A stretch of DNA of 32,764 nt, from positions 1 to 32,764 of the forward strand of contig JAAYGI010000016.1 of the NCBI GenBank assembly GCA_012727815.1. The letters run 5' to 3'. Source of the DNA: Erysipelothrix sp. (GTDB lineage: Bacteria > Bacillota_I > Bacilli_A > Erysipelotrichales > Erysipelotrichaceae). The notes under the pieces are model-generated. The model saw nothing but the letters and a program-made list of their open reading frames with translations, was not told where the DNA came from and made no database searches. The position numbers were made by a program, and so were the translations under genes. Every line of letters begins with the position of its first letter. The first letter of the stretch is position 1. Of this stretch, positions 25,593-29,386 are shown piece after piece.

Positions 25593-26702
25593 ATGCCACT
25601 AAATTTTTTATCACTAAGAACACTCATTAGTGCGATCAATATATTAATTGATTTCTCTATTGTATGGATCTTAATATACTACACATTAAGGGTAGTTCGA
25701 AATAATTCAAGAACAGTACAAATTTTTAAGGGAGTTGTGCTTGTTGTTTTAGTACGCTTTATTGCATACTACTTAGGTTTAAAGGTTGTATTATCTTTAG
25801 CTGATTTCTTAATACAGTACGGTGTACTTGTATTTGTAATTATATTCCAACAAGAAATCAGAGGACTTTTAGAACGCTTAGGAAAAACAACTGTATTCTC
25901 CTCACTTCATAGTCTTTCAGGAAATGAAAGAGAAAGACTTATTAATGAACTTGTAAAAGCAAGTGTCAGTTTATCAGAGCAAAAAATAGGTGCAATTATT
26001 ACACTGGAGCAAGGACACTCATTGGCAGACTTTATTAAAACAGGAACACCAATTAATTCCACAGTAACAGCAGACTTATTGACATCTATATTTGTAACAA
26101 CTACACCACTTCATGATGGTGCGGTAATTATTCAGGGAAACAGTATTGCTTGTGCATCTGCATATTTCCCAACGACATCCCTAGATTTACCAACACGTTT
26201 TGGTGCACGTCACCGTGCAGCAATTGGAGTAAGTGAAATTACAGACTCTATTACAATTGTTATATCTGAGGAAACAGGAACAATCTCTGTTGCTGAAAAT
26301 GGTAAGTTGACCGAAAATGATGGCAACAGTCTACGTGATTATTTGAATGTTTTAATTCAAAATACTGAAACTGAAATCAGTAATAAAGTTGAATTAAAAA
26401 CAACTAAGAAAGTTAACTTAAAAAGATTCAACATGGATCCTTTAAACATCGAGAAAGTCGACGAAGAAGATATTAACCCATTAACATCTTTCTTTAGAAA
26501 AGATAAGACTTCAGATAAAAAATCTAAAGGTAAGAACGCTGTGACACAAGAAGAAAAACAAGATGCCCCAGTAAGGTTATTCAAAAAATTAAAAGAATCA
26601 CCAAAAACAGATGAAGATGCTGCAGATTTAGAATCCCTAAAGAGCGCAACATCTCGAAAAAAAGAACCATCCATTGGAAATGGAGGTAGTGAAGATGAAT
26701 AA
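25593..26702 (+). CDS. cdaA: Diadenylate cyclase CdaA (c-di-AMP synthase) with long charged C-terminal tail
   Basis: Three N-terminal TM segments; DAC domain TPLHDGAVII and GARHRAAIG; charged tail after about residue 265. Confidence 0.95.
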   Translation: MPLNFLSLRTLISAINILIDFSIVWILIYYTLRVVRNNSRTVQIFKGVVLVVLVRFIAYYLGLKVVLSLADFLIQYGVLVFVIIFQQEIRGLLERLGKTTVFSSLHSLSGNERERLINELVKASVSLSEQKIGAIITLEQGHSLADFIKTGTPINSTVTADLLTSIFVTTTPLHDGAVIIQGNSIACASAYFPTTSLDLPTRFGARHRAAIGVSEITDSITIVISEETGTISVAENGKLTENDGNSLRDYLNVLIQNTETEISNKVELKTTKKVNLKRFNMDPLNIEKVDEEDINPLTSFFRKDKTSDKKSKGKNAVTQEEKQDAPVRLFKKLKESPKTDEDAADLESLKSATSRKKEPSIGNGGSEDE

Positions 26703-28065
26703 AAAAGATAACAAAGAACAAAAAGAATTAAGAGACAAGAAAAGAACTCAAGATAAACAAGACCTAGCAGAACGTGTTGCACAGCAAAAAGAAAAATGGA
26801 CAACACGCTATGATCTTATAGGTGGTTACTTTAAACAAGCATTCAGATGGTTTAGTGCTTGGTTTGATAGAATCGTATTCAATCCTAAATATGCACGTGT
26901 TGTAGCATTCTCATTTGCGATACTTGTATACCTAACATTCTCAGCAGAAAGTGTTGATACTGTAGTACAGGCTAAGTCATTGTCGAATGTACAAGTTAAC
27001 GCAATCTACAATAGAGAGATGTACGAAGTTTCAGGTATTGAAAGTACTGTAGGGGTAGATGTATTGGGTGATTATTCAGATATCATCGTAGTAGAACCCG
27101 AAGAAATTACGGTTGAACTGGATCTAAGAACACTTGGAGAAGGAACTCACCAAGTTGATTATGTTCCTGTGGGTGTTTCAAGTCGTGTTAAGGCTAAGGT
27201 AGTACCAGCATCAGCACGTGTAACAATCCGCATTAAAGAAACTAAAACAATGGCACTATCATATGAATTTATCAATCAAGATAAATTGGCAGACCAATAT
27301 GTATTGGGAGAAGTAACATTAGATTCAAGAGATGTAACAATATCAGCTTCTAAAGAAACACTTGATGAAATTGCATTTGTTAAGGCACTGATTGATGTTG
27401 GTGGAAAAACAAGTACATTTGATCAAGAAGCAACCATTGTTGCATATAACCAAAATGGTGAAAAACTTGAAAACGCAGACGTTATACCACGTGTAGTAAA
27501 TGCAAAAGTAGAAGTATCTTCACCAAATAAAACAGTTCCAATCTATGCAAGATTCGAAGGTGAAATACCTGATAATAAAGCAGTCGCATCAATTGTAATG
27601 GACCACGAAGCCATCACAATTTACGGACAGCAATCAGTATTGGATGCAATTGATGAGATTACGGTATATATACCGGCATCGACATTATCCTCTGGAAAAC
27701 TAACACACAACATATCATTACCAACAGGTGTTAAACACGGTAGTGTTTCAAAAGTAAGTGTTGATGTGAAACTAGATGATATGGTAACTAAAGAGTTCCC
27801 GAACGTTGAAATAGTGTATCGTGGAAATATCCATGGATATAAGATTAAAGCGGCAAATGAAGCAGACTTTACAACATCACTCATAGTAAAAGGAACTCAA
27901 GCTAATTTAGATAAGTTTGATCCAAGTGATGTAATTGTATATGTAAACATGAGAGATATTCAAATTGGAAATGGACAAGACTTAACACTCTATATTGATG
28001 AACAATTACCACTTCTTGATATTAAATCAACCAAGTCATCAATTAAAGTAGATGTTATAGAATAG
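26695..28065 (+). CDS. cdaR: CdaR/YbbR-domain regulator of CdaA
   Basis: One TM (VVAFSFAILVYLTF) followed by YbbR repeats; immediately downstream of cdaA. Likely start MNKKDNKEQ at 26695 (GGAGG SD). Confidence 0.92.
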   Translation: MNKKDNKEQKELRDKKRTQDKQDLAERVAQQKEKWTTRYDLIGGYFKQAFRWFSAWFDRIVFNPKYARVVAFSFAILVYLTFSAESVDTVVQAKSLSNVQVNAIYNREMYEVSGIESTVGVDVLGDYSDIIVVEPEEITVELDLRTLGEGTHQVDYVPVGVSSRVKAKVVPASARVTIRIKETKTMALSYEFINQDKLADQYVLGEVTLDSRDVTISASKETLDEIAFVKALIDVGGKTSTFDQEATIVAYNQNGEKLENADVIPRVVNAKVEVSSPNKTVPIYARFEGEIPDNKAVASIVMDHEAITIYGQQSVLDAIDEITVYIPASTLSSGKLTHNISLPTGVKHGSVSKVSVDVKLDDMVTKEFPNVEIVYRGNIHGYKIKAANEADFTTSLIVKGTQANLDKFDPSDVIVYVNMRDIQIGNGQDLTLYIDEQLPLLDIKSTKSSIKVDVIE

Positions 28066-28075
28066 GAGAATTATT

Positions 28076-29386
28076 ATCAAATACTTTGGTACAGACGGCA
28101 TTCGGGGGAAAGCCAACGAAATTTTAACACCTAAGCTTGCGCTTATGGTGGGTGAATATTTGGGACATACCCTAAAAAATGAAAAACTTGTAATTGGGAA
28201 AGACCCAAGACAATCGTCAGATATGCTAGAACATGCATTAGCAGCCGGTGCAGCCTCACAAGGTGCACAGGTATACTTAGCAGGTACCGTAGCAACACCA
28301 GCCTTAGCATACATTCTAAAGGAGAATGGATTCAGTGCAGGTGTTATGATATCAGCAAGCCACAACCCTTATGTGGATAATGGATTAAAAGTTTTTAGTT
28401 CAGAAGGATTTAAAATACCAGCTGATTTAGAGGATGATATAGAACGCTATATCAAAGGTGAAATTAAACTTAATAGACCAGATCATATTGGAAATATTCA
28501 CTACTACTCAGACGGAATAGAGCACTATATTAAGCATTTAGAAGATTCTATGACACATAGACTTGATGGTCTTAAAGTTGTGTTAGACCTAGCGAATGGT
28601 TCATCTGTAACTTCAGCTAAAAGATTGTTTGAAGGATTTGGAGCAAATGTTATTCTAATGAATGACACTCCAAATGGTACTAATATTAACCACAATGGTG
28701 GTTCAACACATATGGACTATATTGCGAAAGCAGTTGTAGAACACAAAGCAGACATGGGTTTTGCATTTGATGGAGATGCAGACAGATGTCTTGCAGTTGA
28801 TGAATTAGGAAATATTATTGATGGTGATAAAATTCTATACATACTTGGAAAAGATATGTTAGCAACAAATCATTTAGATAAAAATACTGTTGTATCAACA
28901 GTTATGGCAAATCTTGGATTTTTAAAATCCATGAAGAAGCTTGGAATTAATGTAATTCAAACAGATGTAGGCGACAAAAATGTTGTTGCTGAAATGATGG
29001 AAAACGACTATGTACTGGGTGGAGAACAATCAGGACATATCGTCTTAAAAGAATATGCAACAACAGGAGATGGGGTACTCACTGCAATTAAAATGGCAGA
29101 GATTATTGCAAAAAACAAAACGACAATGCACACTATATCAAATGAATGTATGACATTTCCTCAAGTACTGATAAATGTCAAAGTCAAAGATAAAAATGTC
29201 ATCATGTCAAATAGATTATTACAAGATAAAATTAAAAAGATTGCAGATAGCTTGGAGGATGAAGGAAGAATCCTTGTAAGACCTTCAGGTACTGAAAATC
29301 TACTAAGAGTTATGGTTGAAGCAAAAACCCAAGAAGTATGTCAAAAACTTGCTGATGAAGTTGTAAATCTTATTGTAAAACTATAA
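28076..29386 (+). CDS. glmM: Phosphoglucosamine mutase, apparent AUC start codon
   Basis: Codons from 28076 read (I/M)KYFGTDGIRGKANEILTPKLAL, followed by the ATG-initiated track ORF at 28145; SASHNPY catalytic motif, DGDADR. SD AGGAG at 28064-28068 lies 7 nt upstream of ATC. Confidence 0.93.
   Translation: MKYFGTDGIRGKANEILTPKLALMVGEYLGHTLKNEKLVIGKDPRQSSDMLEHALAAGAASQGAQVYLAGTVATPALAYILKENGFSAGVMISASHNPYVDNGLKVFSSEGFKIPADLEDDIERYIKGEIKLNRPDHIGNIHYYSDGIEHYIKHLEDSMTHRLDGLKVVLDLANGSSVTSAKRLFEGFGANVILMNDTPNGTNINHNGGSTHMDYIAKAVVEHKADMGFAFDGDADRCLAVDELGNIIDGDKILYILGKDMLATNHLDKNTVVSTVMANLGFLKSMKKLGINVIQTDVGDKNVVAEMMENDYVLGGEQSGHIVLKEYATTGDGVLTAIKMAEIIAKNKTTMHTISNECMTFPQVLINVKVKDKNVIMSNRLLQDKIKKIADSLEDEGRILVRPSGTENLLRVMVEAKTQEVCQKLADEVVNLIVKL

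Follow-up and report, generated by a model that had tools for sequence, protein, structure and literature searches.

Where does translation of glmM begin in this Erysipelothrix genome? Within the window (the whole analysed stretch of 32,764 nucleotides), the gene encoding the essential enzyme GlmM follows cdaA and cdaR, a gene order borne out by Pfam, and the original prediction held that it has no ATG, GTG or TTG start and that its best start codon is an AUC derived from ATG. When the sequence was re-read, every coordinate given around the glmM start proved exact. The in-frame TAG at 28058 rules out a canonical start farther upstream, no ATG, GTG or TTG occurs in the glmM frame from 28061 to 28144, and the first canonical codon after the TAG is the ATG at 28145, so the claim that a canonical start is missing holds. 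As proposed, the cdaR stop was found to overlap the SD. Seven nucleotides (28069-28075) separate the AGGAG from the ATC at 28076, which is followed by the codons AAA TAC TTT GGT ACA GAC GGC ATT CGG, and the RNA around the start is predicted to form a stem of moderate stability (-13.7 kcal/mol, z -1.7), which does not make a clear case for strong structure masking the start codon. The features of this region are collected in Table 1.

Table 1 Features of the cdaA-cdaR-glmM region and of the glmM start, in window coordinates
Feature	Coordinates	Strand	Remarks
cdaA, diadenylate cyclase	25593..26702	+	First of the cdaA-cdaR-glmM set; PF02457 DAC, PF19293 CdaA_N
cdaR (YbbR domain, PF07949)	26674..28065	+	Stop TAG 28063-28065 overlaps the glmM SD, 10 nt before the ATC
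TAG stop in the glmM frame	28058..28060	+	Closes the frame upstream
SD AGGAG	28064..28068	+	5-nt match of ordinary strength, equal to the median of 177 sampled genes
Two in-frame ATT codons, rival starts	28070..28075	+	SD spacing too short
ATC, likeliest glmM start codon	28076..28078	+	Directly before KYFGTDGIRG; would give M-KYFGTDGIRG
glmM, phosphoglucosamine mutase	28076..29386	+	Otherwise intact; 436 aa if the ATC is the start
First in-frame ATG of the glmM frame	28145..28147	+	A start here removes 23 codons including KYFGTDGIRG

The identity of the gene is clear. Its product scored 532.6 bits against the TIGR01455 equivalog profile (cut-off 447.55), contains all four PGM_PMM domains (I-IV) of Pfam together with the motifs SASHNP, DGDADR and RPSGT, and has as its closest solved structure the phosphoglucosamine mutase 3pdk, the match to which begins at the Lys of KYFGTDG. 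In the 22 codons after the ATC, 18 of the 22 residues (82%) are identical to those of the nearest relative (G011), against 59% in the remainder of the protein, and the nucleotide differences in this stretch fall 7/0/12 at codon positions 1/2/3. Both the excess of identity and this pattern indicate that the codons 5′ of the ATG at 28145 are translated and constrained as protein. The same stretch is identical at 14-19 of 22 residues in ten other members of the genus.

Among 29 relatives within the genus, family and order, glmM starts with ATG in 27 cases and with GTG in two, the nearest relative having ATG, which confines the change of start codon to this genome. An origin of the ATC from ATG, as had been proposed, thus agrees with both the sequence and these 29 of 29 canonical starts. 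Across 296 genomes of the class, an ATH codon directly before KYFGTDG was seen in this genome only, and the pattern ATH-GGN-KYFGTDG in none. Relatives in the genus mostly begin M-G-K-Y-F or M-x-K-Y-F, so the ATC aligns with their second residue, and the ATT at 28073 stands at the position of their Met. Several other glmM genes showed peculiarities of their own. In genus member G007, a single-contig genome, glmM occupies two frames with the break at residue 346 (L019, G007:C1:199624-200924), owing either to a frameshift or to an indel error; one Erysipelotrichaceae genome encodes a GlmM with a fused N-terminal helix-turn-helix-like domain (L043, from 5183); L154 carries a similar extension before KYFGTDG, and L130 and L134, with much longer open frames, possibly do too.

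As background for SDs and start codons, 218 kb of this genome with 196 ORFs were sampled. An SD of at least 5 nt precedes 116 of 177 sampled genes, with aligned spacing peaking at 5-7. The ATC at 28076 has an aligned spacing of 6, among the commonest (23 of the 116), while the spacing of 3 for the ATT at 28073 occurs in 2 of the 116 and the ATT at 28070 has no useful spacing; the SD geometry therefore favours the ATC. The view that AUC is the best start codon of glmM is in this way consistent with the sequence, with the relatives and with SD spacing. In the ORF screen of the 218 kb and an ortholog comparison with two relatives, only glmM and infC clearly needed a non-canonical start, and among 51 genes with an aligned N-terminus glmM was, infC apart, alone in having no canonical start. 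The missing start of glmM therefore goes beyond what chance would give. The other ATH-start candidates of the ORF screen were discarded, because a canonical start lies upstream or the coding signal is almost absent.

The start of infC was compared across the genus. The infC of this genome (G000:C107, about 29701, minus strand; L054) has an ATC start behind TAG-GAGGTGAACTTT, as in G011. The ATC follows AGGAGGTGA, an SD match of 9 nt that is much stronger than the SD of glmM. ATC is likewise the infC start in G011, G004 and G008 (L055, L060 and L061), ATT is found in the other nine members, and a GAGGTG-type SD always precedes the start. From these sequences, infC in this lineage very probably does initiate at AUC, which makes initiation at AUC plausible in this organism. 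Two changes of the initiation machinery were considered as causes and set aside. IF3 aligns with its relatives in the genus and has no obvious oddity. Of the 13 genomes of the genus, 11 contain the initiator anticodon arm GGCTCATAACC; G000 and G011 were searched for it without success, and no tRNA-Met appeared among the scanned tRNA loci of these two drafts. Since GGCTCATAACC sits in a tRNA cluster in the relatives examined, its absence seems to reflect a gap in the assembly and says nothing about a variant initiator tRNA. The fMet cluster of the relatives seems to be missing from both drafts.

An exact pattern scan for ATH-KYFGTDG in about 85,000 species genomes returned 16 stretches. In two of them, both from uncultured Clostridia, ATT stands where the glmM gene should begin: L034 (genome G340, at 676), behind the extended SD GGAGGTGAT, and L038 (genome G341, minus strand, about 837), behind the extended SD GGAGGTG. 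Their SDs are 7-9 nt long, their glmM genes are 51-52% identical to each other, and a trxB-like gene lies upstream in both. In L038 there is no canonical in-frame start after the preceding stop; in L034 the trxB-like gene contains an in-frame ATG, 17 codons before the ATT and with no evident SD. The infC of the genome carrying L038 seems to start with ATA. Among the glmM N-termini of this Clostridia group (n = 29), two have ATT (L034 and L038), three are N-terminally extended and the rest are canonical. These two genes suggest that non-AUG glmM starts have arisen elsewhere. The remaining stretches were rejected: L044 and L046 have ordinary ATG-ATT starts, L036, L045 and L047 have an ATG upstream, L043 is the N-terminal fusion, and L035, L037, L039-L042, L048 and L049 are not glmM. 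A first literature search on AUC start and glmM returned unrelated papers alone.

Taken together, we regard it as rather likely that glmM starts at AUC 28076-28078 through a lineage-specific AUG-to-AUC change, initiation there being weak but assisted by translational coupling to cdaR. Against this reading stand the 29 canonical starts of the relatives and an SD of ordinary strength, where the infC of this genome and both Clostridia glmM genes have extended ones; moreover, a drop to about a tenth would be expected to be costly for an essential enzyme. The first two points also lend weight to an error in sequencing or assembly, or a minority strain variant in the consensus, with ATG as the real codon at 28076. 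The C at 28078 is a single base in a draft assembly (123 contigs, 84% complete), the change is limited to one genome and lies one base from the expected start, and the ordinary SD offers no compensation. On the other side, an alignment of 76 genes (71 kb) with relatives showed no frameshift or internal stop that would mark an error, a check that bounds indels and hardly bounds substitutions; what it flagged was the place where a gene naturally ends, the stop that precedes infC and, in a match of 33% identity, the C-terminus. An error would also have to be set beside the ATC with which infC of this genome begins and the ATT-start glmM genes elsewhere. In our judgement, which was not computed, C is fairly likely to be the true base at 28078, and we consider an error or minority variant unlikely, if by no means negligible.

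If the sequence is real, initiation might instead occur at AUU 28073, giving M-I-KYFGTDG, or at both codons. The one residue that relatives in the genus have between Met and KYFGTDG would place the Met at this ATT, but the rarity of its SD spacing compared with that of the ATC makes such a start very improbable. A real loss of the start, leaving only a truncated GlmM from the ATG at 28145 or a decaying glmM, would make use of a codon that is in frame but preceded by a weak SD (TAAG). As had been predicted, KYFGTDGIRG would then be lost, and domain I would begin at profile position 30 of 138. The remainder of glmM is intact with all its motifs, and no second glmM was found in the genome, where the two other PGM-family genes are far relatives of 28% identity; we therefore consider a start loss very improbable.

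For an AUC start of glmM, the following course of initiation can be proposed (for E. coli, see PMC2268962). The AGGAG SD would set fMet-tRNA on AUC 28076, where initiation would be weak because the codon is near-cognate and partly rejected by IF3. Ribosomes ending cdaR at the UAG inside the SD would probably reinitiate 10 nt downstream and so raise the yield, and the likely outcome would be full-length GlmM, beginning MKYFGTDGIRG, at a reduced level. GlmM inhibits CdaA in B. subtilis (PMC8573169) and the CdaA homologue DacA in S. aureus (PMC6368335); lower GlmM could therefore raise c-di-AMP here. We infer the use of the AUC in the cell, the coupling, the sensitivity to IF3 and the effect on c-di-AMP through CdaA. 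The original interpretation is thus partly supported, and on its sequence glmM probably joins the AUN-start genes, a class already known, as a new member.

Such a start would matter in several ways. Gene finders limited to ATG, GTG and TTG would cut 23 residues, and with them the N-terminal motif, from GlmM. If the AUC is true, an essential metabolic gene is placed on a weak start codon beside the gene for the c-di-AMP cyclase, which in relatives is inhibited by GlmM. The interest of the case lies mainly in the essentiality of the gene and in the independent existence of ATT-start glmM; with the two Clostridia genes the situation is not unique, and second and third systems are at hand. To our knowledge, few bacterial genes outside infC have an AUU, AUC or AUA start. 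We also raise a broader idea, which we think improbable: that non-AUG glmM starts, with AUC in this genome and AUU in two or more Clostridia, arose more than once, hold GlmM low and tie it to initiation fidelity through IF3. The supply of cell-wall precursors would then follow the state of the translation machinery, as would the relief of CdaA from inhibition where cdaA, cdaR and glmM form an operon.

Among known systems, infC is one of the closest. It starts with ATT in E. coli and ATC in Streptomyces (PMC5472188) and with AUA in S. aureus (PMC13009471), and is autoregulated by IF3. Like glmM, it departs from AUG at the third base, after an SD, and in this genome its start is also ATC; the infC SD is 9 nt long, however, and the non-canonical start is kept across the genus, whereas the glmM change is found in one genome behind a 5-nt SD. 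With AUN-start genes in general, glmM shares an SD at working distance and the want of any canonical start that would preserve the N-terminus; the extended SD and the start kept in relatives, which characterize the conserved regulated type (infC, ccpN), are both lacking. In S. aureus, infC (AUA), cvfC1 (AUU) and ccpN (AUA) have extended SDs, citZ is a metabolic enzyme gene with a non-canonical AUA start specific to one lineage, and expression from the non-canonical sites tested, citZ included, was about 10% of that from AUG in poor medium (PMC13009471). For the AUC of glmM, citZ counts as a precedent in favour, while the ordinary SD speaks against an AUC start that has been kept for long. Thus ccpN, cvfC1 and citZ resemble glmM as genes outside translation with non-canonical starts, citZ being lineage-specific as well, while ccpN and cvfC1 differ in having conserved starts and extended SDs. 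The S. aureus starts have Ribo-Ret mapping and reporter assays behind them; the AUC of glmM is a prediction from sequence. In sigR of Streptomyces, a GTC start sets a low output in a translationally coupled operon (PMC5472188), which is reminiscent of the arrangement suggested here; the codon is GTC rather than ATC, and repression by IF3 was demonstrated by experiment for sigR, where for glmM we infer it. Also close are the glmM genes of the two Clostridia (L034/G340 and L038/G341), the same gene with an AUN codon directly before KYFGTDG, which differ in having ATT instead of ATC, extended SDs and a trxB-like gene upstream in place of cdaR.
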